DNA of 64,000 nt from Clostridiales bacterium (GTDB lineage: Bacteria > Bacillota > Clostridia > Oscillospirales > Oscillospiraceae): positions 1-64,000 of the forward strand of contig JAQXKZ010000031.1 in assembly GCA_029010715.1 (NCBI GenBank), in the 5' to 3' direction. Positions within the stretch are counted from its first letter, which is position 1. Each line of letters opens with the position of its first letter. The position numbers and the translations under genes are program-made. This document shows, one piece after another, positions 17,108 to 34,136 of this stretch. Below the pieces are notes generated by a model. The model saw nothing but the letters and a program-made list of their open reading frames with translations, did not search any database and had not been told where the DNA came from.

Positions 17108-18967
17108 ATGGATGAATTATTTTTTTGTCCCACTTGTATGGCGAATATCAAACCGGAGAACGGCAGGTGCCCGGTATGCAGCGCTGATTTGAACGTTGAG
17201 AACGCTCCGCACCAGCTTTCCGTGAACAGTATTCTGTACGGAAGGTATCTCGTCGGCAAGGCCCTCGGCGCGGGCGGCTTCGGAATTACATATATTGGCT
17301 ATGACCTTAAGCTCAACAGCAAGGTTGCAGTTAAGGAGTTTTACATGTCGGGAGGCGTCAGCCGCACCGACTCTCTTACTGTCGCTCCGACGGACAAGAC
17401 CTTTGAAGCACCGTTCAACAAGGGCAAGGAGCGCTTTCTTGACGAAGCAAAAATACTCGCTCAGTTTATTGATGAGCCTAACATAGTAAATGTGCGCGAT
17501 TTTTTTGAGGAAAACGGCACCGCATATATAGTGATGGAATATCTTGATGGCGAGGACCTGAACCACTATTTGAAAAAGCATGGGGCCCAGGACTTTGACT
17601 CGACTATGGCAATGCTCGAGCCGGCAATGCTTGCGCTGGACAAGGTACATAAGAAGGGACTGATCCACAGAGATATAAGCCCTTCTAATATTATGTTGCT
17701 CAAGGACGGAAGCGTTAAGGTGCTGGACTTCGGAACGGCGAGGACGCAGAGCGTATTCGGCGAGAAGAGCCTTTCCATCATGCTCAAGCCGGGATACGCC
17801 CCGGAGGAGCAGTACAGGACGCACGGGCAGCAGGGGCCCTGGACGGATGTATACGCGATGAGCGCGACCTTCTACCGCCTGCTCACCGGCAAAACCCCAC
17901 CCACCTCGACGGACAGAATGTTCAACGACACGATCGAGCTGCCGTCAGCGCTCGGAGTCAGGATCACGCCGCAGCAGGAGGCGGCGCTTATGCGCGGCCT
18001 CGCGGTAAGGAGCGCGGACAGAATCCAGACGATGGAGGAGCTCGTCAAGTGCCTTAAGGGCGAACAGAAAATCAAAAAACTCAGAAAGGCGACACCCTGG
18101 AAGAAGATAGCCGCAGCGGCTGCTGTACTGGCAGTGATTGGCGGGGGCATTATTGCCGTTGCAGGCGGCGGAGGCAGTAAGATCGCCGCATTCGTTTCCG
18201 GCACGGCCGCGGAGAGCGGAAAGGCGGAATCCGAAGCAGGTGCGAAGACCGATGATAAAAGCAGTGACGAACCGGATGGCGAATATGTGCTTGAGGACAA
18301 GTACATGCTTGTCAAGAAAACTGTGAGGGATGCCCGAGGCAAGCTGCTGTATACCGAAGAATATGAGTATAATGAATACGGAGGAAGAACACGGTACTTT
18401 TATCAGTATTATGTTGATGGCGCGCCGAGCCATAGCTCCGAGATAAAAATGGGATATGACGAAAATAATATACTCATTTATCAAGAAAGCGAATATCAGG
18501 GAATATCACGCTACGAGTATGAATACGACGAGGATGGCCGGGTCACAAAGCGATATGAGTATGACGAGAACCATAATCTGAAAGGTTGGGATGAATACGA
18601 ACGCCCGGATGGAGTGAAGGGGCAGGACGTCTATACCTATTACCCGGACGGGACGCTTGAAGGCTTCTATAAGTCCCGCTATGATGAAGCTGAAAGAACA
18701 AGTGTTTATGAAGACTATGACGCAGACGGAAAGCTCAGCTATAAAAGCATTACAAAAACCGATGAGAATGGAAATATAGTCTCATCCAAGATGTACAGTG
18801 ACGGAGAGAACCTCAGCAGAGAAGAGGCCTACACCTACGACTCCGAGGGCAGAATGATCTCCGGAAGTGAGACGACGTACTACAGCGAGGAGCCGCAGAA
18901 GAATACCATTACCGGAAAAAGCGAACTGATGCAGATATATGTCTGGCATTACTTTGACGAGGAGTAA
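17108..18967 (+). CDS. Membrane Ser/Thr protein kinase with N-terminal zinc-ribbon tag and YD-like extracytoplasmic repeats
   Basis: This 619-residue protein starts with a paired-Cys tag (C7, C10, C21, C24). It is followed by a complete Hanks-type kinase: glycine loop GAGGFG (54-59), catalytic Lys76 in VAVKE, H187-R188-D189 in the catalytic loop with the Asn of PSNI, D207 of DFG, and a GYAPEEQY APE motif. An Ala/Gly-rich membrane segment lies at about 334-354. The outer part (about 370-619) is built of Tyr/Asp/Glu-rich strand repeats of the YEYDEDGR type, like YD or MORN-like repeats. It phosphorylates Ser/Thr of partner proteins at the membrane, and the outer repeats may sense envelope ligands (inference). 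It is the first gene of the locus, with ribosome site GGAGG, and the next gene begins 32 bp downstream. Confidence 0.93.
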   Translation: MDELFFCPTCMANIKPENGRCPVCSADLNVENAPHQLSVNSILYGRYLVGKALGAGGFGITYIGYDLKLNSKVAVKEFYMSGGVSRTDSLTVAPTDKTFEAPFNKGKERFLDEAKILAQFIDEPNIVNVRDFFEENGTAYIVMEYLDGEDLNHYLKKHGAQDFDSTMAMLEPAMLALDKVHKKGLIHRDISPSNIMLLKDGSVKVLDFGTARTQSVFGEKSLSIMLKPGYAPEEQYRTHGQQGPWTDVYAMSATFYRLLTGKTPPTSTDRMFNDTIELPSALGVRITPQQEAALMRGLAVRSADRIQTMEELVKCLKGEQKIKKLRKATPWKKIAAAAAVLAVIGGGIIAVAGGGGSKIAAFVSGTAAESGKAESEAGAKTDDKSSDEPDGEYVLEDKYMLVKKTVRDARGKLLYTEEYEYNEYGGRTRYFYQYYVDGAPSHSSEIKMGYDENNILIYQESEYQGISRYEYEYDEDGRVTKRYEYDENHNLKGWDEYERPDGVKGQDVYTYYPDGTLEGFYKSRYDEAERTSVYEDYDADGKLSYKSITKTDENGNIVSSKMYSDGENLSREEAYTYDSEGRMISGSETTYYSEEPQKNTITGKSELMQIYVWHYFDEE

Positions 18968-18999
18968 GCCCAAAATCATCCGAAAGGAAGCGAAAAGGA

Positions 19000-21012
19000 A
19001 TGCCCAATATGATCCTGTGCCCGCACTGTATGACACTCAACGAGACAGACGGGCATGTATGCATGACCTGCGGGAAGGATATGAACGCCGGCAACAATAC
19101 GCATCAACTCCCGATAGGAACAGTTCTGAACAAGCGCTACCTTGTTGGCTGCGCCATAGGCGGCGGAGGGTTCGGAATTACATACATAGGCTATGACATG
19201 CTGCTGAATATCAAGGTTGCGATCAAGGAGTACTATCCAAGCGGAGCAGCCAACCGAAGCACGACGGCAACGGTATATCCCACCTCAAGCAGCGGCGGCA
19301 GCTCGTTTGAAATCGGCAAGGAACGCTTCCTGAACGAAGCCAGAATCCTTTCTGATTTTATAGACGACGCGAACGTTGTGACGCTCAGAGACTTCTTTGA
19401 AGAGAACGGCACGGCGTACATCATTATGGAATATCTCGACGGGCAGGATCTGAGAGAGTATTTAAACGAACATGGTGCAATGAGCTTTGACGAAGCGCTG
19501 GAGCTGATTACCCCGGCCATAAAGGCGCTTGAGCGTATACACGCCAAAGGTATCATCCACGGGGACATCAGCCCGTCGAACATCATGCGTCTCAGCAACG
19601 GCGAAGTGAAGATACTGGACTTCGGCACGGCAAGGAATCAGGGCGGAAACGAAAACTACAATTCGTCAATGATGCTCAAGCCCGGATATGCCCCGGAGGA
19701 GCAGTTCAGACAGCAGGGCGAGCTGGGACCATGGACAGATGTATACGCGATAAGCGCGACAATATACAAGCTCATAACCAATGTTACTCCGGAGAACTCA
19801 ACGGACAGGGTTTACGGCGACACTCTTATGCGGCCGGGCAAGCTCGGCGCAAAGATCAGTCCGGCGCAGGAGGCGGCGCTGATGAAGGGCATGGCTGTCA
19901 GCGCAAAGAACCGCACCGGTACGATGGGTGAGTTGCTTGACAGTCTGAACCGGAACAGGCTCAGCGCTGCGGATGCGGTAAAGCTGCTGTTTGGGAAGCG
20001 GATTTTCCGTATCGGCGTGGCCGCAGCAGCTGCACTTCTCATCCTTTGCCTCACGCTGACCGGAAAGAAGGCGGAGACTTCTGTCAATACAGCCGCAGTG
20101 CCGGAGCAGAGTAAAACGACAGACGCAACACAGGACAGCCGTATTCAAAACGTCACTCTTAGGGAGGACGCTTACCCTGTCAAAATGTATTCCGGCATGG
20201 AAAAGATGGAGGGATTTTCAAGGGCAAGTCTGCTCAGCAGCAGTGGCGGCGATATATATATCAGCGACTGCTTCATCGGAAACGGTATGCTGTGCCTGAT
20301 TATGAATCTTGACAACAGGAGCGACGATGCCGGCACTGTGTTCAATGCAGAGCTGACGGACGGCTACAGAACAGTAGAATGTGATTTATATGACGAGATT
20401 AAACCCGGAGAGCAGAGAACGGTAGGGCTGTGGTTCAGTACAGATTTGATGTATATTCAGGGAATAAGCAACTTCAACAGGCTTGATCTGAATTTAACTG
20501 TGGACGGTTTTGGAAAGGAATATGAGAGCTTGTCCTCGATGGTGTATTTCCCGGAAACCGTACATATAGAGAGCAATATCGATACCGTGCCGGTGACCCT
20601 GTATTCGGAGGATAATCTGGAACTCATGTGTTACGGTGTGTCACTGAGAGAAGACAATTGCCTTGGAAGTATTCTGCTTAAGGCAAGGAGAAAGGTAAAG
20701 GATTATAAATCCATAACCTGTTCTCTGGATAATAATGAGGTATATGCCGACGGGACAAAGATGTTCTCTCAGGTCTCCAACTACAAATATATTGGTTATG
20801 AAGACGATAATTATTTAATGATTGATTTTAACTACGGATACTCTGCCCCGGTGGATGAAATGAATGTGATGCACTCAAACACGCAGATGCCAAAGACGGT
20901 GACGCTTACGGTCAAAATCGGCAACGGCAACAGCTCAGATGACATCATAGCCGGAGAGTCGCTCACGTTCGAGATAGACAATGATGGCATAGGTCATCTT
21001 AAACAGGGATAA
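19000..21012 (+). CDS. Membrane Ser/Thr protein kinase with N-terminal zinc-ribbon tag, catalytic loop HGD
   Basis: This is a 670-residue paralogue of the preceding kinase with the same Cys spacing (C7, C10, C21, C24). The kinase domain keeps GGGGFG, the Lys of VAIKE, D189, the Asn of PSNI, D207 of DFG and GYAPEEQF. The Arg of HRD is Gly (H187-G188-D189), which makes it a non-RD kinase that may not need activation-loop phosphorylation. A membrane segment lies at about 339-356. The outer domain (about 385-670) is beta-rich, unlike that of the first kinase, and not assigned to a family. The start at 19000 is supported by AGGAAG upstream. The different sensor domain next to a similar kinase suggests two inputs to one circuit (inference). 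Confidence 0.92.
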   Translation: MPNMILCPHCMTLNETDGHVCMTCGKDMNAGNNTHQLPIGTVLNKRYLVGCAIGGGGFGITYIGYDMLLNIKVAIKEYYPSGAANRSTTATVYPTSSSGGSSFEIGKERFLNEARILSDFIDDANVVTLRDFFEENGTAYIIMEYLDGQDLREYLNEHGAMSFDEALELITPAIKALERIHAKGIIHGDISPSNIMRLSNGEVKILDFGTARNQGGNENYNSSMMLKPGYAPEEQFRQQGELGPWTDVYAISATIYKLITNVTPENSTDRVYGDTLMRPGKLGAKISPAQEAALMKGMAVSAKNRTGTMGELLDSLNRNRLSAADAVKLLFGKRIFRIGVAAAAALLILCLTLTGKKAETSVNTAAVPEQSKTTDATQDSRIQNVTLREDAYPVKMYSGMEKMEGFSRASLLSSSGGDIYISDCFIGNGMLCLIMNLDNRSDDAGTVFNAELTDGYRTVECDLYDEIKPGEQRTVGLWFSTDLMYIQGISNFNRLDLNLTVDGFGKEYESLSSMVYFPETVHIESNIDTVPVTLYSEDNLELMCYGVSLREDNCLGSILLKARRKVKDYKSITCSLDNNEVYADGTKMFSQVSNYKYIGYEDDNYLMIDFNYGYSAPVDEMNVMHSNTQMPKTVTLTVKIGNGNSSDDIIAGESLTFEIDNDGIGHLKQG

Positions 21013-21026
21013 AAGGAGAGAATGGA

Positions 21027-22460
21027 ATGAGGAGCGATAAGACATGGGTGTGCAGCGAATGCGGCACCGTGAATCAGGCCGAGTTTGATATATGCTTCAG
21101 GTGCGGAGCAGCGCGCGGATCTGTACAGGAACCGCCGGCGGACGGAAAGGCAAAGAAGCAGAAGCCGGAGAAGAAACCAAAGGAAAAAAAGGCAAGACCC
21201 GAAAATCAGGCGGGTGTTTCCGCGGGTAAGGGAAAATGGAAGCCGGTGCTGATTACCGCTTTGATCGTAATTGCGCTGTTTGTGGGGATCAGCGCGGCGT
21301 TTCACAGCGCGGCGAAAAAGCTTGCCGATGAGGGCAAGTACGGCGAAGCTGCCGCCAAGGCGAAGTTCGACCTCCTTTTCAGTGCAAATCTTAAAGAGTC
21401 CGCGTTTATCGAAAAGGGCATGGAGCTTTATAATAAGGGCGATTATGCAGGGGCGGAAAAGTACCTGAGGTCCTTCACCGATGATGAAACGGCTAAGAAA
21501 TACCTGAACCTGTCGAACATGATGCTTGCATATAAGTATTACGACAGGGGCAACTACGACAAAGCGATTGAGCTTATCGAGGGAATAGACGACCCGTCAC
21601 TCGATCTTAAGCAACTCAGAAACGATGCTTATTTCAGCAAGGGCTTTGAGCAGCTCAAGGCAGGAAATCTTGAGAAAGCGCAGCCCAGCTTCGAGAATGT
21701 TACCGACGATCCGCTGACAGCGGACTATCTTGAAATAATCAAGGGCCTCGATTCGGGGGACTACGTAGCGGCGGCAAAGCTTGCGGAGGAATGTTCCGGA
21801 AATGGCCCTAAACAGCTGCCGCTCTACGATTGGAAGGACCTGTTTGAGAAAGAGCTTGAATCCGCCGACAGGGATACGATTGACCAGCTGTTCCGGATAA
21901 ACGCCGCGCTGAGAATGTTGAGCGGAGACGTTGACTTCACCGAGGAGGAACCGGGGTTCGTTTTATATTCCCAGCCGAAAGACCAGAGCTTTAACGATGA
22001 AGATCACACCATCGTGACAATTGAGGATTTAAACCGCTGCGGCAGCAGCGAGGACGGCAAGATAATCGTCCTGTGGGAAATACATAAATACGACACCGAT
22101 GAGGTCGTGTACTACATCGACTGGGATATCATGGGTCAAATCCCCAAGGAGCTGTATCCGGAGTCGCTTGAAGAGGTCGGCCGCTCAGTACGGATAGTGT
22201 GCGGCGGTGAAAAAGAGGGCTGGTATAATCTCAAAAGCGGCGGCAGCGCTGACGCGGTCAGAGAATACTCGACCGTCTATGCCGTGCTCGGATACAACGG
22301 CGGCAGCTTCTACTCCTCGCCTAAGGTGTGGGGTCCGACATGCCCGTACAGCATATTCTCTGCTTATGACGGGGTGCCGGTGTTTGGCGGCCTTACTGAC
22401 TATTCAGACAACGATAACAGCATCTATATATACAAGGCATTGAGAAAGCTGGTAATGTAA
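21027..22460 (+). CDS. Zinc-ribbon-tagged membrane protein with TPR-like helical repeats
   Basis: This is a 477-residue protein. The N-terminus (W7-V-C9, C12, C23, C26) resembles a RanBP2-type or double zinc ribbon. A Lys/Pro/Glu-rich linker leads to a membrane segment at about 74-93. The following part (about 100-290) consists of helical pairs with TPR-like features (GKYGEAAAKAKFD, GDYAGAEKYL, NYDKAIELIEG, GNLEKAQPSF). The last about 150 residues form a separate domain without a recognised family. It sits 14 bp after kinase 2 with a strong AAAGGAGAG site. TPR repeats bind proteins or peptides, so a scaffold or sensor role in the kinase pathway is likely but inferred. Confidence 0.8.
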   Translation: MRSDKTWVCSECGTVNQAEFDICFRCGAARGSVQEPPADGKAKKQKPEKKPKEKKARPENQAGVSAGKGKWKPVLITALIVIALFVGISAAFHSAAKKLADEGKYGEAAAKAKFDLLFSANLKESAFIEKGMELYNKGDYAGAEKYLRSFTDDETAKKYLNLSNMMLAYKYYDRGNYDKAIELIEGIDDPSLDLKQLRNDAYFSKGFEQLKAGNLEKAQPSFENVTDDPLTADYLEIIKGLDSGDYVAAAKLAEECSGNGPKQLPLYDWKDLFEKELESADRDTIDQLFRINAALRMLSGDVDFTEEEPGFVLYSQPKDQSFNDEDHTIVTIEDLNRCGSSEDGKIIVLWEIHKYDTDEVVYYIDWDIMGQIPKELYPESLEEVGRSVRIVCGGEKEGWYNLKSGGSADAVREYSTVYAVLGYNGGSFYSSPKVWGPTCPYSIFSAYDGVPVFGGLTDYSDNDNSIYIYKALRKLVM

Positions 22461-22491
22461 TGCCTGCAGATAAAACGGAGGCGATACTGCT

Positions 22492-23238
22492 ATGCGCTGG
22501 GATATTGCAAGCATGAGCGAGCACGGAGAGCGGAAAAACAACGAGGACTGCGTAGAGGTCGCTGCAGCGGATGCCGGAATATGCGCCGTGCTGTGCGACG
22601 GCCTCGGAGGGCACGACGCCGGAGAGCTTGCGTCGAAATGTGTCTGTGAAAGCATAATCGCAGACTTTGAGAAGGCCCCGGAGGATGCGGATATATACGA
22701 ACTCGTATGCGAGCTTATCCAGAGCGCACAGGACGAGCTGCTCAAAAAACAGATCGAGCTTGATAATCAGGGCGGGATGAAAACAACGGTCTGCTGTCTG
22801 CTGCTCCAGAACGGCAAGGCGGCGGCAGCCTATGTCGGTGACAGCCGCATATACCAATTCAGGAAAAAACGGCTGCTGTCAAGATCGGTGGATCACTCCG
22901 TTCCTCAATACCTCGTGAACGTCGGGGAAATCAGGGAAAGCGAAATCCGGCACCATCCGGACCGCAACAAGCTGCTGCGGGTTATGGGGTCGGAATGGGA
23001 GTCGCCCCGTTACCAGCGCATGACCCTGTCGGAGCCGCTGCGTGATGACGCGTTCCTTCTCTGCACGGATGGCTTCTGGGAGTGGATAGAGGAGAAGGAA
23101 ATGGAGTCCATGCTCAAACGCGCGTCATGCTCTGAGGAGTGGCTCTGCAATATGAAGAAGCTCATATACACCCGCGGAAGCGGAAAGAAAATGGATAACC
23201 TGTCTGCAATCGCAATCAGACAGGTGGACAAGGGCTAA
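22492..23238 (+). CDS. PP2C-family Ser/Thr protein phosphatase
   Basis: This is a 248-residue soluble phosphatase. The metal-binding and active-site motifs of bacterial PP2C (PPM) enzymes are in order: NNEDC near the N-terminus, CDGLGGHDAGE, YVGDSRIYQF, CTDGFWEW, and KMDNLSAIAI at the end. It would remove phosphates placed by the neighbouring kinases in a Mn2+/Mg2+-dependent reaction. It is placed between the TPR protein and the first small FHA protein, which matches the order in the second half of the locus (kinase, PP2C, FHA). Confidence 0.95.
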   Translation: MRWDIASMSEHGERKNNEDCVEVAAADAGICAVLCDGLGGHDAGELASKCVCESIIADFEKAPEDADIYELVCELIQSAQDELLKKQIELDNQGGMKTTVCCLLLQNGKAAAAYVGDSRIYQFRKKRLLSRSVDHSVPQYLVNVGEIRESEIRHHPDRNKLLRVMGSEWESPRYQRMTLSEPLRDDAFLLCTDGFWEWIEEKEMESMLKRASCSEEWLCNMKKLIYTRGSGKKMDNLSAIAIRQVDKG

Positions 23239-23279
23239 GGGATAATGCAATACAAAATCAAACTGGAAGAGGAGAAATC

Positions 23280-23906
23280 ATGAAGGTTTTAAAGTGCCAG
23301 AAAGGTCATTTCTTTGACGGGGAAAAATACAGCTCCTGCCCATACTGCGAGGACGGCGGCGCTACTGTCTCTAATAGTGTTCCGCAGTTCACAAAGGAAG
23401 ATATAGAGTATGCAAAGACTGCGGCAGCAAATGACGGCGAAGACGTGACCGTTGCATATGAGGAAGACAGGGACAGAGAGCAGACCATAGCATATCAGTG
23501 GACCCCATCTGCTGACGTGAATGCAGATGCGGCCGCAGACGTCCCGGATTTCCATATACAGGAAGAACGTTTTGAGCCGGTGGTCGGATGGCTTGTATGC
23601 GTGGAAGGGGCGGAGCGCGGCCGCGACTACAGGCTCCTCGCAGGAAGAAACTATATAGGCCGCTCCGTCGATATGGACATCAGCATCCCGGACGACCAGC
23701 AGCTGTCCCGCGAAAGGCACTGCTCCGTTATATATGACCCGCGTTCATTCCGCTTTGTAGTTCTGCCCGGAGACTCCTCACTCACAATGCTCAACGGCGA
23801 GACACTGAATATGCCGCATGACCTGAAGGACGGAGACGTAATTACCTGTGGCAGCACGAAGCTATGCTTCATCGCTTACTGCAGGGAAGGACGGGATTGG
23901 GAATGA
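23280..23906 (+). CDS. Small cytoplasmic FHA-domain protein with Cys/His zinc tag
   Basis: This is a 208-residue protein without a membrane segment. The N-terminus has C6, H10, C20, C23 (CQKGHFFDGEKYSSCPYC), a likely single zinc site. An acidic linker with several Thr (DVTVAYEEDR...) follows and could be a phospho-acceptor. The FHA domain (about 112-205) has the phospho-threonine-binding pattern YIGRS, LSRERH and LNGE. It would dock on phosphorylated partners. Its stop overlaps the next start by ATGA. It is paralogous to the protein at 28126-28869. Confidence 0.88.
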   Translation: MKVLKCQKGHFFDGEKYSSCPYCEDGGATVSNSVPQFTKEDIEYAKTAAANDGEDVTVAYEEDRDREQTIAYQWTPSADVNADAAADVPDFHIQEERFEPVVGWLVCVEGAERGRDYRLLAGRNYIGRSVDMDISIPDDQQLSRERHCSVIYDPRSFRFVVLPGDSSLTMLNGETLNMPHDLKDGDVITCGSTKLCFIAYCREGRDWE

Positions 23907-25669: not shown

Positions 25670-25709
25670 GATGAGAATTAATTCCTGACGGGAGGAGCGG
25701 ACGGATCAA

Positions 25710-27143: not shown

Positions 27144-28084
27144 ACGGAATGTGGATCGTTTTAGCGGCTGCCGGCACGGCACCCGAAGCATCGTTCAACG
27201 GAATGCGTCTGGCGGGAATACTGCTGGCGGCTGCCGGAATCATCCTGATTGCGGTCGGGATAATTTACAGACGCAGCGGAAGGACAAAAACCGTCCATAA
27301 GCTTAACATTGCGGAAAATGTCAATATTTCTGCAGAGAGCATAATAGGCGACCGCAAGTATCAGCAGGACTTTTTCATTTTTACGCCTGACAGCGACGAC
27401 GGTGCAGCCGGGGAATCCGGCCTTCTTGCAATTGTATGCGACGGTATGGGCGGCATGGAAGGCGGAGAGATCGCAAGCCGCATGTGCGCGGAGCTTGTGT
27501 ACAACGGCTTCTATCAGATGGGCAAGGTTGATGACGTCTGTCAGGTGCTCAGGGAACTTGTTTCTGCGGCAGATGCAGAGGTGTCGGCGATCACGGGTCA
27601 GGACGGCATAAAGCTCAACAGCGGCACGACTATTGTCGCCGTTGTTGTGCGCGGAAACAGGGCGTATTGGGTTTCATCCGGGGACAGCCGTATTTATTTC
27701 CTGCATAACGGACGACTCGAACGGCTTACGCGCGATCACAATTTCCGCATGCTTCTTCAGGAACAGTGCAACGCCGGGTACATCTCACAAGAAGAGGTGG
27801 ACAGCGACTGCCAGAAGGAAGCGCTCGTAAGCTATGTCGGAAAGGGCGGCAACCTTATAATCGACACGGGCGAGGTCGAGTTCGGCGTGGCGCAAAACGA
27901 CGTTATTATGCTCTGCTCCGACGGACTGTATAAAACGACCTGCGAGGATGACATACAGAGACTGATGCTTCAGTATGCATCGAATACGTCGCGGCTGCCG
28001 AACGTGCTTGCACGGGCGGCAATGGCCGGAGGAAGAGCCGGAAAGCACGACAACATAACCGTGCTTACTTTAAGCAGAGAATAA
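27140..28084 (+). CDS. Membrane-anchored PP2C-family protein phosphatase
   Basis: The protein has 314 residues. One hydrophobic segment lies at about 22-42, then a basic stretch (YRRSGRTK) marks the cytoplasmic side. The phosphatase domain shows DRKYQQD, CDGMGGMEGGE, SSGDSRIYFL, CSDGLYKT and KHDNITVLTL. It starts inside the stop of the kinase-FHA gene (ATGA), which implies coupled synthesis of a kinase/phosphatase pair. Membrane anchoring separates it from the soluble PP2C earlier in the locus, so the two may act on different substrate pools (inference). Confidence 0.94.
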   Translation: MNGMWIVLAAAGTAPEASFNGMRLAGILLAAAGIILIAVGIIYRRSGRTKTVHKLNIAENVNISAESIIGDRKYQQDFFIFTPDSDDGAAGESGLLAIVCDGMGGMEGGEIASRMCAELVYNGFYQMGKVDDVCQVLRELVSAADAEVSAITGQDGIKLNSGTTIVAVVVRGNRAYWVSSGDSRIYFLHNGRLERLTRDHNFRMLLQEQCNAGYISQEEVDSDCQKEALVSYVGKGGNLIIDTGEVEFGVAQNDVIMLCSDGLYKTTCEDDIQRLMLQYASNTSRLPNVLARAAMAGGRAGKHDNITVLTLSRE

Positions 28085-28125
28085 TTATCGTAATAATAAA
28101 AGCAACAATCAGGGAGGAAAAAAGA

Positions 28126-28869
28126 ATGAAATTACAGAGATGCGTAAACGGCCACTTTTACGACGGAGATAAGTATTCATCCTGCCCGCACTGCCAGAAT
28201 GCGGGACTTCAGGGCTCCAGCAACGACGAAACGGTCACCGTGCCCTTGAATCGTACTCCGGGCGCCGTGTCCAGCGGCACAATTCCGGTCGGGATGGGCG
28301 GCGGAAATACAGTACCCGTAAACTATTCCGACGAATCGGTAACTATGCCCATAACGCAGCCGGCGCAGGGCAGCCGGATGCCTGTAATGAATAACAGCGG
28401 CAACGGCGGTATGGTCAGCATGCCCGACGACGAGGGCAAGACAATAGGCATCTACGGAAATGTTTTCGAAAACAAGCCGGCGCCGAAGCCGTCAAAAGAC
28501 GAATATGCCGGACAGACCTCCCCGTGCGCAGGATGGCTGGTCTGCGTCGGCGGCATGCATGTCGGCCGCGATTTCAGACTCTATGTGGGAAGAAACACCA
28601 TCGGCCGCAGTGACAGCAACAGCGTTGCCCTAAGCGGGGATACCAGTGTTTCCAAGGAGCCGCAGGCCATCATCGTATATGAGCCACAGGGCAACAGATT
28701 CTTTGCGGTGCCTGGCACGGCAAGGAGCCTGGCCTATGTGAACGGTCAGGTCCTGCTTGCTCAGACCCAACTGAACAAGAACGACATAATCGAGCTGGGC
28801 GGCACCAAGCTTATGCTCATCCCCTGCTGTGACGAGAAATTCAACTGGAACACCGTGTTTGCAAAATGA
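28126..28869 (+). CDS. Small FHA-domain protein with Cys/His zinc tag (paralogue 2), FHA His replaced
   Basis: This is a 247-residue paralogue of the protein at 23280-23906, with the same tag geometry C6, H10, C20, C23 (CVNGHFYDGDKYSSCPHC). A low-complexity linker rich in Thr, Gly and Pro with repeated ETVTVP/ESVTMP-like motifs follows and offers possible phospho-threonines. The FHA domain (about 140-245) has TIGRS but SKEPQ where the first paralogue has SRERH, so the conserved His of the SxxH motif is Pro. Phosphopeptide binding may be altered. The ribosome site is GGGAGG. Confidence 0.86.
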   Translation: MKLQRCVNGHFYDGDKYSSCPHCQNAGLQGSSNDETVTVPLNRTPGAVSSGTIPVGMGGGNTVPVNYSDESVTMPITQPAQGSRMPVMNNSGNGGMVSMPDDEGKTIGIYGNVFENKPAPKPSKDEYAGQTSPCAGWLVCVGGMHVGRDFRLYVGRNTIGRSDSNSVALSGDTSVSKEPQAIIVYEPQGNRFFAVPGTARSLAYVNGQVLLAQTQLNKNDIIELGGTKLMLIPCCDEKFNWNTVFAK

Positions 28870-28875
28870 ATATAT

Positions 28876-28954
28876 GCGGCTGAGCAGCCGCAGGAGCACA
28901 CAGCACCACAGGCCGGTGTGCCCGTTCAAATAATGATTTTGTGGTGATGTTACA
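28876..28954 (+). other. Intercistronic gap with two small hairpins
   Basis: GCGGCT-GAGC-AGCCGC (28876-28891) and GCACAC...GTGTGC (about 28896-28921) can fold in the mRNA between the FHA and PASTA genes. There is no T tract, so they more likely modulate mRNA stability than end transcription. This is the largest gap (85 bp) in the locus. Confidence 0.35.
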
Positions 28955-29821
28955 TTGACCAATACAAAGACGCGGATGTATATGGATCATACAGACGAAA
29001 AAATAAGAGCTGACAGAATAAACAGGCGCTCAATGATAATGATCGTTCTTGGTGTGCTGCTGTGTACCGCAGGTGTGGCACTCATCCTTTTTGCGCCCGG
29101 AACAGCGGATAAGATGAACGAGATGCCGTATCTTATCGGCACTGATGAGGATGAGGCTACAGCACGGCTCGAAGAATACGGACTTACCGTGATTATCGAG
29201 ACGGGGGAAAGCGACGCATATGATGACGGCGTTGTTATCGGACAGAGTATTGAACCGGGCGAAGCGATAGAGCCGGGCATGACCGTTACGCTGACAGTCA
29301 ACGGCAGCAGTATAAGGATGTTTGATAATTATACGCCTCCCATGGGGACCGCAGCGCCGAAGAACGGAGAAAACAACGGTGAGCTTGAGCGCAATCAGCC
29401 CGGTGAGGGTTCAAACGGAAAGACGCCGCCGCAGCCCGGCAATAAAGAGGATTCGCCTGACAAGGGCGACGAAACCGGAGACGGCAGCACCGGAGACGGC
29501 AGCACCGGAGGCGGCACCGGAGGCGGCAGCACCGAAAGCGGGAGCACCGGAGGCGGGAGCACCGAAAGCGGCAGCACCGAAAGCGGCAGCACCGGAGGAG
29601 GCGGCACCGAAAGCGGGAGCACCGGAGGCGGCAGCGCCGGAGGCGGTAGCACCGAAAGCGGCAGCACCGGAGGCGGCAATACCGGAGGCGGCAGCACCGG
29701 AGACGGCGGCACCGGAGGCGGCAATAGCGGAGACGGCGGCACCGGAGACGGGACCGTGACAGACGCGCCGTCTGCCGGCTCAAATGCCGGCAGCGTATCC
29801 GCAGAGAATAACGAACCATAA
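28955..29821 (+). CDS. Single-pass membrane protein with one PASTA domain and a Gly/Ser/Thr/Glu repeat tail
   Basis: This is a 288-residue protein read from TTG 28955, preceded by GGTGATG. ATG 28976 or 28982 are alternatives. A charged cytoplasmic N-terminus, a membrane segment at about 26-48, and one PASTA domain (about 55-115: MPYLIGTDEDEATARLEEYG, GQSIEPGEAI, VTLTVNG) are followed by a low-complexity tail of GSTGG/GSTES units to the C-terminus. PASTA domains bind muropeptides or beta-lactams and are usually the outer part of PknB/PrkC kinases. Here the domain is on a separate protein without a kinase, so it may be a detached sensor subunit. Confidence 0.85.
   Translation: MTNTKTRMYMDHTDEKIRADRINRRSMIMIVLGVLLCTAGVALILFAPGTADKMNEMPYLIGTDEDEATARLEEYGLTVIIETGESDAYDDGVVIGQSIEPGEAIEPGMTVTLTVNGSSIRMFDNYTPPMGTAAPKNGENNGELERNQPGEGSNGKTPPQPGNKEDSPDKGDETGDGSTGDGSTGGGTGGGSTESGSTGGGSTESGSTESGSTGGGGTESGSTGGGSAGGGSTESGSTGGGNTGGGSTGDGGTGGGNSGDGGTGDGTVTDAPSAGSNAGSVSAENNEP
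29485..29757 (+). repeat. In-frame tandem repeat encoding GSTGG/GSTES units
   Basis: About 18 degenerate 15-bp units alternate between ACCGGAGGCGGCAGC-like and ACCGAAAGCGGCAGC-like forms. Units are whole codons, so copy-number change would alter tail length without a frameshift. This is a candidate length-variable wall-spanning or stalk region. Confidence 0.85.
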
Positions 29822-29859
29822 GCAAATAAGCGCCAAAGAAAAACAGCAAGGAGAAGATT

Positions 29860-32523
29860 ATGGGCGCAAGAGAGGTAAGCATAAGCGCGATATACAGAAA
29901 CTCGCTGATCGGTAAATGCACGGTTGCCGAGACTAATGACATGCAGGTGACTATAGGCCGCGAGCCGGGAAACAACATAGTTATCCCGTCACAGTACGTT
30001 GGCCGGATACATTGTGTGCTTCGGTTCTATAATGGCATATGGTATGCGCAGAATCAGAGCCGGAACGGCAGCTTTATAAACGGCTGTCCGATTGACGGCT
30101 TTACTCCGGTAAACACCGGCGACAGACTCAGCCTGCTCAGCGGCGACAAAGAGATCCTGATACAGTTTTCGCATCCGACCTGGGGCAGGAATTCCACCAG
30201 GGTGAACGATAAGGATGAAAATGATCTGGAGCTGCTCGTTTTTGACGGTAAGGACAGCGTATTTCGATACCGGCTGGACCGCACCCAAAACCGGCAGTAT
30301 CGTTTTGGCCGCGACGCGGATAACGACATCGTAATTGATTCCGCCGCCATTTCCGGGCATCACGGTGTGATAGAAATGACCGGCGGCGTATGCACGCTCT
30401 GCGACGTCGGCAGTACGAACGGTATTTGGATAAACGGTACGCGTTACGTTGGAAGACAGAACTACCTGCATGAGCTGCATGCGGGTGACGTCCTGCGAGT
30501 CGATACGGACAAAGACAGGGGATCGCTTGGCGCTATGTTAGTCGTCACGGACGGCGTCGGCGAGTGGCACAGGTACAGGCTGAGTAATAATAAGCCAAAT
30601 GTCATAGGACGTGCCGAGCATAGCGACATCAGGCTCCGCCATGTCGGCGTGTCCAGGCGCCATGCTGTGATAAACTACAGGGCAGGCGGCTATTACATCG
30701 AGAACTTCGGCACGAACGGTACGCTGGTCGACAATGCGATCATTACAGGCACGGTACCGCTGAGAAACCGGAGCACAATTTCCGTAACGACCACTACATT
30801 TTACCTCTGCGGCGACGAGCTCTATTATTACCTCTCCGAGGGCGGACTCAGGCTTGAGGCGCGCGAACTGACCAGAGATGTGACAAACCGCGGCAAGACC
30901 AAACGCATACTCAACGGTGTGAACCTGTCGATAGAGCCGGGCGAGTTTGTGGCGATAATCGGCGGCTCAGGCTGCGGGAAGTCCACGCTGCTCAATGCGC
31001 TCACAGGATATGAGCATGCGACAAATGGCACGGTTCTTGTCGGAGATAAGTCTCTTTACAGTAATTATGATTATTTCAAGAGCCTGATAGGCTTTGTTCC
31101 ACAGCAGGATATCGTTTACGATTTTCTTGAGCTTGAGAGGATGCTCGATTACACTGCGCAGCTGCGCATGCCCAAGGATGCAGACAGGGAAGAGCGTGAG
31201 GCTCGCGTGAAGGCTGTGCTTGACATGGTGGAGCTGAGCGAGTTTTCGACTTCAATGGTCAAAAAGCTCAGCGGAGGTCAGCGCAAGAGAGCCAGTATAG
31301 CAGTGGAGCTGCTGGCTGATCCCGGACTGTTTTTCCTTGATGAGCCAACCTCCGGTCTTGACCCCGGAACCGAGAGAAAGCTTATGCACACGCTGCGAAG
31401 ACTCGCAAGCGAAAACCGCAAGACTGTGATCATGGTCACGCACACAACCCTGAACCTTAATCTGTGCGACAAGATCGTATTCATGGGCAAGGGCGGCAAG
31501 CTATGCTTCTGCGGTAAGCCAGACGAAGCACTGCGCTTTTTCGGCGTCGACAACTTTGTGGACATTTATAACCTCGTTGCTGACGACACCGACAAATGGC
31601 ACGACAAATTCGCGCACGACCTGAACGTAGCCGGAACTACCGCTCCCGATCCGCTTGAAATCGGCAAGATAGAACGTCCGCGCTTCTTCAAGCAGGCAGG
31701 CATACTTTCGAATCGGTATCTGAACCTGATCTGCAATGACCGGGCAAGGCTTTTGCTGATGCTGCTTGAGCCGATTCTGATGGGACTGATCCTGTACATA
31801 TGCAAGCCCGAAGATATGTTCGAGACTTATATAGCCACGAAGAATCTGCTCTTTACCTATGTCTGCTGTGCAATATGGATAGGCATATTTAATTCGGTGC
31901 AGGAAATATGTAAGGAACGTGTGATACTCAAGCGTGAGTATATGGCGAACCTTCGGCTCAGCGCATACATATCCTCTAAGTTCATCGTTCAGGCGCTTCT
32001 GTGCCTTGCGCAGAGCGTGCTGCTGTTTACGGTATTTGCACTGACAATGGGGATGCCGGAAGAGGGCATGCTCTGCGGCTCCGCAGTTCCGGAGATGCTG
32101 GTCACAACATATCTGACAATACTGTCGTCGACGTGTATGGGCCTTACGCTCTCGTCGGTTGCGAACAATCCGGACAAGGCAATGACGCTTTCGCCGTTCC
32201 TGCTCGTCATACAATTGGTCTTCGCAGGAATAATCTTCGAGCTTGAGGGCGTTGTAGAGCTTGTCTCAAACATTACGATAAGCCGCTGGGCTGTATCAGC
32301 GCTGGGTGTCAGCGCAAATCTTGAAGGACTGTATGATGACTTCTCGGCGAAGCAGGCGCTGATTGCACAGGGCGGAAACAACGGAGCGGACAAGGTGGCG
32401 CAGATGTTTGAGCACAGTGACGCGAACCTGCTCAAGTGCTGGCTGATATTGCTGGCGTTCTGCCTGATATTCTGTGCAGTTTCTGCACTGCTGCTGAGGA
32501 ACGTATCCAGGGACAGCCGTTGA
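29860..32523 (+). CDS. Three FHA domains fused to an ABCG-type exporter (Rv1747-like)
   Basis: This is an 887-residue half-transporter. The three FHA domains centre on GRE (33-35), GRD (150-152) and GRA (250-252). The second and third keep S-x-x-H (SGHH, SRRH) and N-G, while the first has VGRIH. The ATPase follows, with Walker A GGSGCGKST (368-376), LSGGQRKR at about 470, Walker B LFFLDEP and a TSGLD loop. The C-terminal part (about 610-885) is an ABC2-type domain with about six membrane helices. The architecture resembles mycobacterial Rv1747, a two-FHA ABC exporter phosphorylated by PknF, with one more FHA domain. Substrate unknown. Transport is probably gated by threonine phosphorylation by the local kinases (inference). 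Confidence 0.93.
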   Translation: MGAREVSISAIYRNSLIGKCTVAETNDMQVTIGREPGNNIVIPSQYVGRIHCVLRFYNGIWYAQNQSRNGSFINGCPIDGFTPVNTGDRLSLLSGDKEILIQFSHPTWGRNSTRVNDKDENDLELLVFDGKDSVFRYRLDRTQNRQYRFGRDADNDIVIDSAAISGHHGVIEMTGGVCTLCDVGSTNGIWINGTRYVGRQNYLHELHAGDVLRVDTDKDRGSLGAMLVVTDGVGEWHRYRLSNNKPNVIGRAEHSDIRLRHVGVSRRHAVINYRAGGYYIENFGTNGTLVDNAIITGTVPLRNRSTISVTTTTFYLCGDELYYYLSEGGLRLEARELTRDVTNRGKTKRILNGVNLSIEPGEFVAIIGGSGCGKSTLLNALTGYEHATNGTVLVGDKSLYSNYDYFKSLIGFVPQQDIVYDFLELERMLDYTAQLRMPKDADREEREARVKAVLDMVELSEFSTSMVKKLSGGQRKRASIAVELLADPGLFFLDEPTSGLDPGTERKLMHTLRRLASENRKTVIMVTHTTLNLNLCDKIVFMGKGGKLCFCGKPDEALRFFGVDNFVDIYNLVADDTDKWHDKFAHDLNVAGTTAPDPLEIGKIERPRFFKQAGILSNRYLNLICNDRARLLLMLLEPILMGLILYICKPEDMFETYIATKNLLFTYVCCAIWIGIFNSVQEICKERVILKREYMANLRLSAYISSKFIVQALLCLAQSVLLFTVFALTMGMPEEGMLCGSAVPEMLVTTYLTILSSTCMGLTLSSVANNPDKAMTLSPFLLVIQLVFAGIIFELEGVVELVSNITISRWAVSALGVSANLEGLYDDFSAKQALIAQGGNNGADKVAQMFEHSDANLLKCWLILLAFCLIFCAVSALLLRNVSRDSR

Positions 32524-32551
32524 TATAAAATAAATTATGGGGGATAAGAGA

Positions 32552-33856
32552 ATGACTTACGGAAAAAGAATTATGAGTGTCTGCCTGACGGTCATAATGC
32601 TTATGTCGCTGCTGATGCTTGGTTCTGTAATGAGCGTGAGCGCCTGCGCCGAGAACAGCAAGGTCGAGGAAGCACAGAACAGCGTAGTTCGTATCTTTGT
32701 AAACCTCCCGGGAGGGATCAGTATCGGATCCGGCTTTGCCGTAGGAGGGAAGGACGAAGACGTAGATACGATAATCACGAACTACCACGTTATTGCGGAT
32801 AACCCTGACGAGATATACGTCACCGTAACGGATATCAACGGCGGAATTCCGGCAGAAATGATATATTCCGATGAAGATAATGACTTCGCAATACTCAGGC
32901 TGGATGAAAAGCTGACCGACCGCAAGCCAATCGCATTGCTGTCTCCGAAGGAGCTGCACAAATCGCAGAGCATATACTGCATAGGTTTTCCCGGTTTGTC
33001 GGATACACTCTCTGACAGCGACACATTCAGCTCGCGCATAAAGGATATGACCATAACCAATGGTACGGTCAGCAACAATGAGTATACCGACTACAAGGGG
33101 ACGGTATGCATACTCAGCGACGTCAAAGTCAATCGCGGCAATTCCGGCGGACCCATGGTTGATGAGTACGGTCAGGCGGTCGGTATAAATACGATGGTCA
33201 TCGGCGGCGGTGTGGAACTCAACAACATGACGCTTGCCGTCAGCATCGACTACGTTACTGAGGTTCTTGAGGACAAAGGTATAAACTACATTAAGGGGAC
33301 TGCGAACGGAGCAAATCAAAAGAATTCCGACGCGGGGGACTCGGTTTTTGACGACATAAACATAGATGATGCGCTGCCGTATATAATTGCGGCTGCGGTT
33401 GTTATCGTTGCCGCGGTGACGGTGCTTGTTGTGGCTGCTGCTGTTAAAAAGAGAAAGAAGGTTACTGTTTCCGCATCCGTGGGGCATGCCGGAAAGGGAG
33501 ATACGCCGGGTCACAATCCGGCTGCGGAGACTGTATCCAGAAAGCTCGTCGTTACCTGCGAGAGAGGCCCGATTAAGGGACAAAGCGTAGGGTCGTTCAG
33601 CAGTGTGCGCATAGGCAGAAACAAAAATACCTGCCAGCTTGTATACCCGGACAACACTCCGGGTGTCAGCAAGGAACATTGCGAATTGTATCTGACTGCC
33701 GGCGGGATCATTATTCAAGACCTCAACTCCACCTATGGTACATTTCTTTCCGACGGTCAGAAACTTGCACCGGGAGAGAGAAAGAACATAGGCAATGAGA
33801 ACATTGTCCTATTGGGCTCGGATAAGGTAATCATATCGGTTAAGACAGAGTACTGA
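32552..33856 (+). CDS. Exported HtrA/trypsin-like serine protease domain with membrane segment and cytoplasmic FHA domain
   Basis: The protein has 434 residues from ATG 32552, which is placed 8 nt after GGGGG. An in-frame ATG at 32537 is possible. A signal peptide or anchor (MSVCLTVIMLMSLLML) precedes an S1C-type protease domain with a complete triad: H79 in TNYHVI, D111 in DNDFAIL and S198 in RGNSGGP. There is no PDZ domain. A membrane segment lies at about 273-300. The inner part ends in an FHA domain with G355-R356, SKEH and STYGT (Asn of the usual STNGT replaced by Tyr). Outer proteolysis is thus tied to inner phospho-threonine reading. It is the last gene of the locus. Confidence 0.92.
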   Translation: MTYGKRIMSVCLTVIMLMSLLMLGSVMSVSACAENSKVEEAQNSVVRIFVNLPGGISIGSGFAVGGKDEDVDTIITNYHVIADNPDEIYVTVTDINGGIPAEMIYSDEDNDFAILRLDEKLTDRKPIALLSPKELHKSQSIYCIGFPGLSDTLSDSDTFSSRIKDMTITNGTVSNNEYTDYKGTVCILSDVKVNRGNSGGPMVDEYGQAVGINTMVIGGGVELNNMTLAVSIDYVTEVLEDKGINYIKGTANGANQKNSDAGDSVFDDINIDDALPYIIAAAVVIVAAVTVLVVAAAVKKRKKVTVSASVGHAGKGDTPGHNPAAETVSRKLVVTCERGPIKGQSVGSFSSVRIGRNKNTCQLVYPDNTPGVSKEHCELYLTAGGIIIQDLNSTYGTFLSDGQKLAPGERKNIGNENIVLLGSDKVIISVKTEY

Positions 33857-33908
33857 ACTGTCAATAATGGAGACAGAGTGAGAATATGCCTGTATTCTGC
33901 CAAAGCTG

Positions 33909-34050
33909 CACATGTCCTGGACGCCGGAGATGTCAATACCATCTGAAAGGGAAAAGCGCTCTGACGATATTTGACAGGTATACAAATCTGAAATACAAGT
34001 ACGGCAGCAGACACTTCCGGACGAGGGGATATTACGTCGGCGCAGTTAAT
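33909..34050 (+). pseudogene. IS200/IS605-family transposase (TnpA) remnant
   Basis: Frame 33934-34050 reads LKGKSALTIFDRYTNLKY, then KYGSRHFRTRGYYV, matching the C-terminal half of IS200-type Y1 transposases (LKGKSALMMFD..., NRHFWAEGYYV). Just upstream, another frame reads HMSWTPEMSIPS, which aligns with the HMLVSIPPKxSVSS segment, so at least one frameshift is present. The N-terminal His-x-His region and the catalytic Tyr helix are missing. The element is dead. Comparison is from memory of the family. Confidence 0.75.
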
Positions 34051-34131: not shown

Positions 34132-34136
34132 ACTGA

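Follow-up and report, generated by a model that had tools for sequence, protein, structure and literature searches.

The window analysed here, a 64,000-nucleotide stretch of a Clostridiales genome, contains twelve open reading frames (A to L), confirmed at their coordinates and all oriented on the positive strand between positions 17108 and 33856. The intergenic gaps from A to L are 32, 14, 31, 41, -4, 40, -4, 41, 85, 38 and 13 bp, taking the ATG at 23903 as the start of F and the TTG at 28955 as the start, itself uncertain, of J. An earlier, sequence-only reading had described twelve co-directional genes with gaps of at most 85 bp and two 4-bp overlaps, as found here, and its count of three kinases, two PP2C phosphatases, eight FHA domains and a PASTA protein is borne out by Pfam matches above cut-off: Pkinase in A, B and G, PP2C in D and H, PASTA in J, and FHA in E, F, G, I, K (three stretches) and L. 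ABC_tran and ABC2_membrane in K and Trypsin_2 in L are also above cut-off, and the locus thereby includes an FHA-ABC exporter and a protease-TM-FHA protein in addition to a vWA-TM-FHA protein. Eight of the nine FHA matches of the whole genome, and three of its four above-cut-off kinases, lie inside these 16.7 kb out of 1.99 Mb; random placement gives P values of 2e-16 and 2e-6 respectively, for a region picked after the fact, ruling out chance clustering of the FHA and kinase genes.

A sigma-70-like promoter (TTGACC-18-TATCAT, with a TG ahead of the second hexamer; consensus scan 10/12) is located on the positive strand at 16958–16987, 120 bp upstream of A, and is by consensus the sole positive-strand site above 9/12 in the region. 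An intrinsic-terminator-like hairpin at 34087–34132 on the same strand, likewise identified by consensus, has a 19-bp stem, the longest of the region, and lies 230 bp downstream of L. The one-operon reading is supported by the close spacing and by the bracketing of the genes by the best promoter-like site and the longest terminator-like stem; the consensus scan finds more promoter-like and terminator-like sites within the operon, and spacing and signals together are compatible with a single transcription unit. An Rfam scan gave no match and a tRNA search found none.

Three of the gene products are kinases. A (17108–18967) consists of an N-terminal zinc ribbon, a Ser/Thr kinase domain (PF00069, 114.9 bits) with intact HRD and DFG motifs, a TM segment and a beta-repeat ectodomain, the model of which is all-beta and of low confidence (mean pLDDT 60.6). 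B (19000–21012) is composed of a zinc ribbon, a kinase domain of the HGD variant (PF00069, 112.7 bits), a TM segment and an ectodomain with no detectable similarity to that of A. The kinase domains of A and B share 58-59% identity and are sisters in the kinase tree (FastTree, with long-branch warnings), and that of B is probably, as judged from sequence, a tandem duplicate of that of A. G (25710–27143) is probably soluble and joins a zinc ribbon and a kinase domain of the HSD variant (PF00069, 122.2 bits) to an FHA domain (PF00498, 36.8 bits); its nearest rows in the same tree are the kinase-FHA proteins of loci L118 and L092. By motif check the catalytic Lys, Asp, Asn and DFG are kept in the kinases, with B (HGD) and G (HSD) being non-RD kinases. 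C (21027–22460) has a RanBP-type zinc ribbon, a TM segment and a TPR-like part that probably lies outside the cell; the TPR-like label given to it earlier falls just under threshold (TPR_1 27.4 bits, cut-off 27.8). The ectodomains of A, B and C had no match at E 1e-3 among the ORFs of loci L048-L152. J (28955–29821) carries a TM segment, one PASTA domain (PF03793, 54.3 bits) and a Gly/Ser/Thr-rich repeat stalk, encoded by a 15-bp x 18.7 tandem repeat at 29474-29751, and its PASTA domain matches kinase-fused PASTA in seven loci.

The phosphatases and zinc-ribbon FHA (ZnFHA) readers occur in pairs. D (22492–23238), the first gene of the conserved core described below, encodes a soluble, Stp1-like PP2C phosphatase (PF13672, 48.1 bits), three of whose five nearest rows are PP2Cs of the 'beforeZ' position, while H (27140–28084) encodes a TM-anchored PP2C (PF13672, 36.3 bits) whose nearest rows are all 'afterG' PP2Cs (5/5, with L118 and L092 first). 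These positions are mixed on the tree, with 9 changes between D-type and H-type. E (23280–23906) comprises a zinc ribbon (C-x2-GH ... C-x2-C), a linker and an FHA domain (PF00498, 36 bits), and sits in a 26-row clade made up entirely of 'first'-position ZnFHA proteins (SH-aLRT 97). I (28126–28869), the last core gene, has the same arrangement (PF00498, 30.9 bits), and four of its five nearest rows are 'second'-position ZnFHA proteins. Over the whole locus the phosphate-binding Arg is kept in 8/8 FHA domains and the Ser in 7/8, with the FHA of I lacking the histidine and the first FHA of K lacking the Ser.

Three membrane proteins end or begin in FHA domains. F (23903–25669) is predicted to contain an N-terminal hydrophobic segment, presumed to be a signal peptide as is that of L, followed by an outer vWA domain, a beta domain, a TM segment and a cytoplasmic FHA domain (63.2 bits). 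Its VWA match of about 22.6-22.7 bits is below the Pfam cut-off of 23.8; however, VWA is matched in 32 of the 34 members of the F family, the window's F among them, and the AF2 model (pLDDT 87) matches vWA/integrin I domains and FHA in Foldseek, both of which support the vWA fold. A search for single-protein relatives of F beyond the window's genome returned partial matches only. The vWA-FHA receptor proposed earlier keeps its vWA-TM-FHA layout but has lost the MIDAS (DxSxS...T...D), with N99, A166, N197 and an inserted residue in place of a motif whose Asp, Thr and Asp are kept in 32, 31 and 32 of 33 relatives. K (29860–32523) consists of three FHA domains (PF00498 x3), an ABC ATPase (PF00005, 103.7 bits) and an ABC2 membrane domain (PF01061, 60.2 bits). 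L (32537–33856) has an N-terminal hydrophobic segment, a trypsin/HtrA-like protease domain (PF13365, 78.9 bits), a TM segment and a cytoplasmic FHA domain (PF00498, 49.2 bits); its triad of H84, D116 and S203 is invariant across 8 aligned sequences, and it scores 85.6 bits against the HtrA/DegP model TIGR02037 (cut-off 416), while Pfam lists no PDZ domain. The export and extracellular proteolysis suggested in the earlier reading would be compatible with the predicted topology and the intact catalytic motifs.

One could also see the locus as an accessory island that is decaying and functionless in its host, since it is accessory in the genus (11 of 102 genomes, counting the window's own, match ZnFHA at E 1e-20 or better), gene remnants lie on its flanks and the metal site of F is lost. 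Against this, none of the 12 frames is interrupted over the 16.7 kb and catalytic motifs are kept in the kinases, PP2Cs, protease and ABC ATPase, leaving decay a very improbable explanation. Given the missing His of I, the missing Ser of the first FHA of K and the lost metal site of F, some parts of the locus may be scaffolds.

The domain layout of K resembles that of M. tuberculosis Rv1747, in which FHA domains precede an ABC exporter and whose operon also contains the Ser/Thr kinase PknF (PMC3908365, PMC5549992); K shares the N-terminal FHA, ABC ATPase and ABC-2 domain and has kinases in the same run, but has three FHA domains in a locus that adds phosphatases, adaptors and a protease. Rv1747 has been tied to PIM glycolipids (PMC5549992), and this likeness, together with protein J and kinase-fused PASTA in several of 79 related loci, would fit cell-wall surveillance of the PrkC/PknB kind, with PASTA as the muropeptide sensor and remodelling of the wall or of surface lipids as the output. 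The PrkC/PknB-PrpC pair likewise combines TM kinases, a PP2C and PASTA, however the window's PASTA is on a separate protein and not on A, B or G, which score 165.8, 150.4 and 155.4 bits against the PASTA-kinase model NF033483 (cut-off 450) and are rejected as members. As the highest Pkinase score of the genome belongs to a protein outside the locus (C7, 569-aa frame) and PASTA is not seen at many of the loci, we regard wall surveillance as quite unlikely.

Conservation was assessed with ZnFHA as anchor, in the best 80 of 214 loci, 79 of which were typed. The ZnFHA profile was chosen over a per-genome FHA count because the count mixes lone FHA proteins, which occur in most genomes (frames of ~570-680 aa among the matches listed), with true clusters. 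The typed loci span nine phyla, 50 of the 79 belonging to Bacillota, and a kinase and a PP2C are also present at 64; the other 15 lack this pair in the fetched flank, some of them ending at contig ends. Neighbour domains were called by profiles grown from the window's proteins, with Pfam re-checks on samples, and counts are inflated by related genomes. The core PP2C-ZnFHA-vWAFHA-STKFHA-PP2C-ZnFHA, corresponding to D-I and adjacent and co-directional in the window, is found in order at 4 of these 79 loci, and its last five genes at 13. At none of the other typed loci were all twelve genes seen, and vWA-FHA, G, K and L types were typed together only at the window locus and G052.

Gene order was tested on 77 loci, two having no recognised anchor. 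Components occupy 84% of the +1 slots and 59% of the -1 slots around the anchor, and at most 12% at offsets of 9 or more. The order ZnFHA-vWAFHA was seen 38 times vs 7.7 (sd 2.5) in shuffles, ZnFHA-vWAFHA-STKFHA-PP2C 16 vs 0.2, the same with the second ZnFHA 13 vs 0.0, and PP2C-protease-PP2C 14 vs 1.1. Kinase-ZnFHA (18 vs 16.8) and PP2C-kinase (24 vs 19.9) are near shuffled levels, ZnFHA-PP2C (14 vs 19.2) is below chance, and ZnFHA-K (1 vs 1.4) gives K no fixed place. On the tree, 'first' and 'second' ZnFHA proteins are separated by one change over 59 labelled rows when 50 'other' rows are excluded; counting these, 'first' requires 7 changes and 'second' 10. In a second sample of 393 class genomes, 12 have both vWA-TM-FHA halves, all within the 36 strong-ZnFHA genomes (P 5e-14 if genomes are independent, the 12 coming from three families only, with 3 candidates scored per genome), and the two genes abut in 10 of the 12. 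The conserved unit is D-I, with K and L as optional outputs that have no single fixed place; co-conservation holds for the core in order, but not for all twelve genes.

Some relatives of the locus lie beside genes of type VII secretion (T7SS). WXG100 genes were searched for in 52 genomes (41 of the 79 locus genomes and 11 genus genomes), 50 of which have ZnFHA (all but G012 and G107, both of the genus set). Nine of the 50 matched, two weakly and acidobacterial, and the array was followed in four of the nine, the weak two being excluded: in L075 (Blautia luti), L086, L149 and L150 the module, an EssC-like ATPase (Pfam-confirmed in L150) and WXG100 genes share one mostly co-directional array, contigs having been equated by length. 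In L074, L076 and L090 the contig with the WXG100 stretch differs in length from that with the locus. T7SS variants T7SSc-T7SSj are described as carrying a TM kinase, a PPM phosphatase, a vWA protein (T7SSc) and separate FHA proteins (PMC11217815), the same kinds of component as found here. These observations would support the locus being a regulatory arm of a T7SS, its secretion genes lost or unassembled and its output the secretion of WXG100/LXG cargo. However, the window's genome has 0 WXG100 matches and a single FtsK-like protein of 888 aa, on which T7SS membership of the window copy was rejected, with the caveat that absence of WXG100 and EssC from a 94.7% complete genome is not absolute. 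Furthermore, 41 of the 50 ZnFHA genomes, Gammaproteobacteria included, show no WXG100 (genome completeness not stated), none was seen in L089, the sister of L086, and across 29 'first' ZnFHA rows it takes three changes to explain the linkage. In the available text of PMC11217815 the TscE vWA is called cytoplasmic, whereas F is membrane-spanning with an FHA tail, and ZnFHA, protease-FHA and FHA-ABC proteins are not among the described parts. A T7SS arm is considered unlikely. The earlier statement that the locus has no secretion machine is true of the window copy but not of the family, given the arrays of four genomes and the published variants. A different neighbour, a MotA/ExbB-like protein, occurs at 17 of the 79 typed loci (best 80 of 214), called by Pfam for L105 and otherwise by a profile from L105, one call being an 81-aa fragment.

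Threonine phosphorylation in the T6SS involves the kinase PpkA, the PP2C PppA and the FHA protein Fha1, which control an envelope machine. This PpkA-PppA-Fha1 pathway is named in PMC6213207; among the window ORFs scanned Pfam named no T6SS genes, and the TagH model TIGR03354 (cut-off 120) gave 32.2 bits for F, 22.3 for L and 17.2 for E. ArnA of the archaellum network (ArnA-ArnB-ArnC/D-PP2A) has the layout of E and I, an N-terminal Zn ribbon, flexible linker and C-terminal FHA, and is reported to bind vWA partners in a manner governed by Ser/Thr kinases together with a phosphatase (PMC10470591, PMC5300886). The F model matches the ArnB structure 8s05 (Foldseek TM-score by target 0.37), and ArnA is not among the 18 PDB sequences listed by the ZnFHA profile (A1) at E 0.01. 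In the text available, ArnA-ArnB binds promoters and represses genes, whereas the vWA domain of F is predicted outside the cell, and PP2A takes the place of PP2C.

The TerY-P triad of ter stress systems places vWA, PP2C and kinase genes side by side; it is not known to include an FHA-tailed ectodomain protein. In actinobacterial conflict systems, kinases with zinc ribbons neighbour PP2C and vWA genes (PMC7159879), a kinase-kinase-phosphatase phage-defence module has been published (PMC11341870), and the kinases match the PADLOC PD-T4-6 and mad6 profiles, raising the idea that the locus serves defence or conflict, its kinases sensing infection. These profile matches look kinase-generic, with A, G and B at 137.9, 125.1 and 110.3 bits against the MADS kinase model MAD6 (NF047741, cut-off 460), in NCBIfam and PADLOC scans that covered ten of the twelve proteins (H and J excluded). 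None of the flanking ORFs scanned was assigned by Pfam to a recognised defence family, and E had no match in phage records, on which ground a phage origin of the locus was also dropped. A defence role was rejected as highly improbable on these kinase scores. In the GAP1-N2 systems of actinobacteria the vWA protein is standalone, whereas that of F is fused to TM and FHA, and the accessible text describes no ZnFHA, kinase-FHA, FHA-ABC or protease-FHA proteins (PMC7159879). As the sequence-only reading had anticipated, a full-text search of one open-access library found no described system with the full set; within the literature searched the conserved system has no description, and the exact 12-gene set is local.

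We favour, as somewhat better than an even prospect, the reading that a single operon here encodes a membrane-bound Ser/Thr phospho-switch, in which contacts between FHA domains and phosphothreonine bring envelope machines together. Beside the observed gene content, order, conservation and catalytic motifs and the predicted protein topology, we infer a stimulus, a phosphorylation wiring, FHA docking partners, an exported cargo and a protease substrate. A and B, with closely related kinase engines and unlike ectodomains, would sense the exterior along with J (PASTA) and C (TPR-like), and on stimulation A and B would phosphorylate threonines on themselves and on partners. The probably soluble G, in which a kinase and an FHA domain are joined, may amplify or relay the signal, with E and I serving as putative adaptors. 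The FHA tails of F, of the exporter K and of the outer-side protease L would then dock on the phospho-sites so that a surface complex is gathered or activated, and D in the soluble phase and H at the membrane would reset the switch. In such a scheme D-E-F-G-H-I would be the conserved cassette and the driven machine exchangeable, the neighbouring machine being the presumed output: the ABC exporter and protease in the window, a T7SS in some Clostridia, and a MotA/ExbB-like channel in Acidobacteriota, Pseudomonadota, Thermodesulfobacteriota and Myxococcota.

A broader reading, to which we give slightly less than an even chance, is that this is an unrecognised phospho-switch cassette common to Bacillota, Actinomycetota, Acidobacteriota, Pseudomonadota, Thermodesulfobacteriota, Myxococcota and Synergistota. 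It would have been connected repeatedly to envelope machines unrelated to one another (T7SS, ABC exporter, MotA/ExbB-like channel, surface protease and perhaps dynamins), each of which acquired either an FHA domain or a partner with one, and kinases of swapped ectodomains would be its sensors. Bacterial Ser/Thr kinases have mostly been studied one by one, with scattered targets; a conserved operon with writers, erasers, readers and membrane outputs would offer a closed circuit testable gene by gene, and reduced versions of the locus are present in the cultured Heliobacterium mobile (a kinase, ZnFHA, FHA-protease and two PP2Cs), Bacillus sp. FJAT-29937 and Methylomonas sp. SURF-2 (a kinase, ZnFHA, vWA-FHA and PP2C). 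The recurring nearness of the cassette to the T7SS and to other machines would help explain the kinases, phosphatases and FHA proteins of the newly named T7SS variants, and, if the broader reading is true, the cassette would be a bacterial counterpart to eukaryotic phospho-docking modules.

The twelve ORFs listed by the sequence-only reading (A to L, + strand, 17108-33856) were all borne out, as was their spacing, with gaps of -4 to 85 bp and two 4-bp overlaps (E/F, given by an ATG start for F at 23903, and G/H). Pfam likewise confirmed, over cut-off, the proposed set of three kinases (A, B and G), two PP2C phosphatases (D and H) and eight FHA domains in six proteins, three of these domains being carried by K, an FHA-ABC exporter. 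PASTA, Trypsin_2, ABC_tran and ABC2_membrane also exceeded the cut-off in the operon; F's vWA match and the TPR match in C fell slightly below it. In a consensus scan, the top-scoring + strand promoter-like site, at 16958-16987, lies 120 bp upstream of A, and 230 bp downstream of L comes the region's longest terminator-like stem, of 19 bp (34087-34132); the same scan gave 26 promoter-like sites (15.2 expected) and 22 terminator-like sites (16.8 expected) across the region, some within the operon. In the window's genome, an assembly of 1.99 Mb in 59 contigs at 94.7% completeness, eight of nine FHA hits and three of four over-cut-off kinases fall in the operon stretch, with random-placement probabilities, computed after the fact, of 2e-16 and 2e-6, respectively. 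The Gly/Ser/Thr-rich stalk of the PASTA protein J is encoded by a 15-bp tandem repeat of 18.7 copies (29474-29751).

Near the contig start, a giant ORF of 4385 aa is followed by a second frame at 13219-14838 (overall 22-14838); this region, without a Pfam match for the giant ORF, encodes an Ala/Gly/Thr/Ser-rich protein, interrupted by a stop at 13179 and perhaps truncated by the contig end, that resembles a filamentous adhesin. The gene-poor stretch upstream of the operon holds a degenerate frame with an internal stop (16149-16400), similar to a PhdYefM-type antitoxin, and directly downstream of L is a short frame (33886-34076) resembling an IS200-type transposase fragment, a possible trace of past mobility. 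Co-directional genes at 58224-63986 for a branching-enzyme-like CBM48/alpha-amylase, a starch-synthase-like protein and an alpha-amylase apparently form a glycogen operon.

A hydropathy scan identified one TM segment each in A, B, C, H and J, six in K, and an N-terminal hydrophobic segment, putatively a signal peptide, plus one TM in both F and L; a hit in G (residue 176) was not taken as a TM as it sits within the kinase domain. The predicted topology places the kinase, phosphatase and FHA domains inside the cell, and leaves the A and B ectodomains, C's TPR part, J's PASTA, F's vWA and the L protease outside. DFG, the catalytic Asp/Asn and the lysine of VA[VI]KE are intact in all three kinases, whose catalytic-loop motifs are HRD in A, HGD in B and HSD in G. 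Both phosphatases retain DG[LM]GG, [ST]DG and DN; only D matched the R-x-x-N-E-D pattern at the N-terminus. The phosphate-binding Arg is present in all eight FHA domains and the Ser in seven, the first FHA of K having Gly instead; the FHA His is absent from I. Residues H84, D116 and S203 of the L protease are invariant across eight aligned sequences. The kinase domains of A and B (58-59% identity) suggest a tandem duplication; their ectodomains have no significant similarity to each other and no matches at E 1e-3 among the ORFs of loci L048-L152, and the pair may represent one engine with exchanged sensors. At another locus (L133), five TM kinases in tandem precede a zinc ribbon-linker-FHA (ZnFHA) protein, likely an array of swapped sensors.

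The AlphaFold2 model of F (34 sequences, mean pLDDT 87.2) matched vWA/integrin I domain proteins in Foldseek, several single domains having TM-scores by target of 0.66-0.77. It also matched FHA domains, including GarA and FhaA (0.71-0.88), and, at 0.37, the vWA chain of 8s05, an archaeal ArnAB complex. Pfam detected FHA in 34/34 members of the F family and VWA in 32/34, and the metal site is well kept among 33 relatives (Asp 32, Thr 31, Asp 32). Members of the family would seem to bind at the surface in a metal-dependent way. The window's F has N99, A166 and N197 at these positions, with an inserted residue, and has probably lost metal-dependent binding; the site is likewise lost in a vWA protein of the same genus (L049, genome G052).

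Whether the gene order is conserved elsewhere had been left as a check by the sequence-only reading, and the core order (D to I) does recur in some of the loci compared, its E-to-I part well above shuffles. As the most specific parts of the locus, the ZnFHA proteins E and I served as anchor, and a search of 84,980 species genomes with their alignment (A1) gave matches to 281 stretches, 214 of them encoding relatives. Keeping the best 80 yielded 79 loci, with neighbouring ORFs typed by profiles grown from the window's domains: 50 in Bacillota, 11 in Acidobacteriota, 7 in Pseudomonadota, two each in Actinomycetota, Thermodesulfobacteriota, Myxococcota and Synergistota, one each in Rhodothermota and Bdellovibrionota, the last with none of the other cassette components, and one unplaced. 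Within the fetched flanks, 68/79 loci have a kinase and 64/79 a kinase and PP2C. Components have a density of 0.84 directly after the anchor and of 0.59 directly before it; the figure is at most 0.16 from seven genes out and drops to zero from the tenth gene on, where few genes remain countable. The order ZnFHA - vWA-FHA occurs in 38/77 loci against 7.7 shuffled (sd 2.5), its extension by kinase-FHA and PP2C in 16 against 0.2, and with a second ZnFHA in 13 against 0.0, counts that are raised by kinship among genomes and drawn from loci of which several end at contig ends. PP2C - protease - PP2C was found in 14 loci (1.1 shuffled); the position of K is not fixed (ZnFHA-K in one locus, 1.4 shuffled), and kinase-ZnFHA, ZnFHA-PP2C and PP2C-kinase orders lie about or under shuffled levels. 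All six core genes stand in order in 4/79 loci, every one from Bacillota, and an actinomycete locus (L076) has the last five. By motif scan, contig C88 of G052 (L048-L050) carries seven kinase and four PP2C genes over ~56 kb, with many FHA genes interspersed.

In a tree of 109 ZnFHA proteins, those in 'first' (40, as E) and 'second' (19, as I) position are separated by one change, a figure omitting fifty rows in other positions, with which 'first' takes 7 changes and 'second' 10. E sits in a clade of 26, all 'first' (SH-aLRT 97), and four of the five rows nearest I are 'second'. The nearest relatives of G and of H come from the same two loci (L118 and L092), and D-type and H-type PP2C places take 9 changes, less clean than the ZnFHA split. 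We take the double core to be an old unit in Bacillota and Coriobacteriia. In a second sample of 393 genomes, evenly drawn from the class, A1 matched 103 at E 0.001 and 36, including the window's, at 1e-30, the next genome standing at 2e-9. A two-halved vWA-TM-FHA was seen in 12/393, all within these 36, and abuts the ZnFHA gene in 10/12, the window's included. The overlap has P 5e-14 assuming independent genomes; the 12 belong to three families (eight from one) and three candidates were scored per genome, among the rows listed, and true support is therefore weaker. Within the genus, A1 matched 15/102 genomes, 11 (window's included) at 1e-20 or better, and the cassette is accessory.

The genes accompanying the core vary. 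FHA-ABC proteins occur in 9/79 loci and a trypsin-type gene, mostly FHA-bearing, in 26/79; an FHA-ABC protein, protease, vWA-FHA and kinase-FHA were typed together only in the window and G052. A MotA/ExbB-like protein, a typing with Pfam backing for L105 only, was assigned in 17/79 loci (one an 81-aa fragment; Acidobacteriota 10, Bacillota 0). It stands beside the cassette (at L105, 3196-4823), and a coiled-coil TM protein is close by in 16/17 such loci. In two plasmid loci the match spans about half of E. The Leisingera plasmid NZ_CP041163.1 has a reduced cassette, kinase - FHA - PP2C, followed co-directionally by a hypothetical gene and two dynamin-family genes, which raise the question of a membrane-remodelling output; the Azospirillum plasmid has OmpA - FHA - FHA - PP2C - PP2C - trypsin - DUF805 - kinase, and some kb away lie an integrase and an ISL3 transposase. 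WXG100 proteins, which belong to the type VII secretion system (T7SS), were found in 11/52 genomes searched, including two without ZnFHA (G012 and G107), and in 9/50 ZnFHA-bearing genomes, two through weak acidobacterial matches. In four loci (L075, from Blautia luti, L086, L149 and L150), the contigs bearing WXG100 and the locus are of equal length, and EssC-like and WXG100 genes share one mostly co-directional array with the module; for L180, in the array of L150, Pfam gave FtsK_SpoIIIE and FHA. On the ZnFHA tree, the four loci require three changes among 29 'first' rows. The window's genome, 94.7% complete, gave no WXG100 match and no second FtsK.

Kinases, PPM phosphatases, a vWA protein and FHA proteins have been described in T7SS variants, with phosphorylation control suggested (PMC11217815), and the idea is therefore not new; the T7SS-free, cross-phylum form is absent from the available parts of that account. 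Actinobacterial GAP1-N2 neighbourhoods, in the excerpt available, contain a related triad of zinc-ribbon kinase, PP2C and standalone vWA gene (PMC7159879). The closest working analogue, going by the portions available, is the Arn network of Sulfolobales, which combines a Zn ribbon-FHA protein and vWA partners with kinases and a phosphatase (PMC10470591, PMC5300886); at E 0.01 ArnA lies beyond the reach of the ZnFHA profile, and the likeness is therefore called analogy. In keeping with the sequence-only reading, which knew of no described system with the full set, no account of it was found by full-text searching of one open-access library with few subscription journals, for some searches among the matches listed.

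Given known FHA behaviour and the precedent of the mycobacterial kinase PknF and exporter Rv1747, the FHA domains would dock onto threonines phosphorylated by A, B or G. In our reading, the system joins a constant phospho-switch, comprising writers, erasers, two adaptors and a vWA protein that faces the surface, to a variable machine, which at the window locus would be a surface protease held by a tether together with an FHA-ABC exporter.
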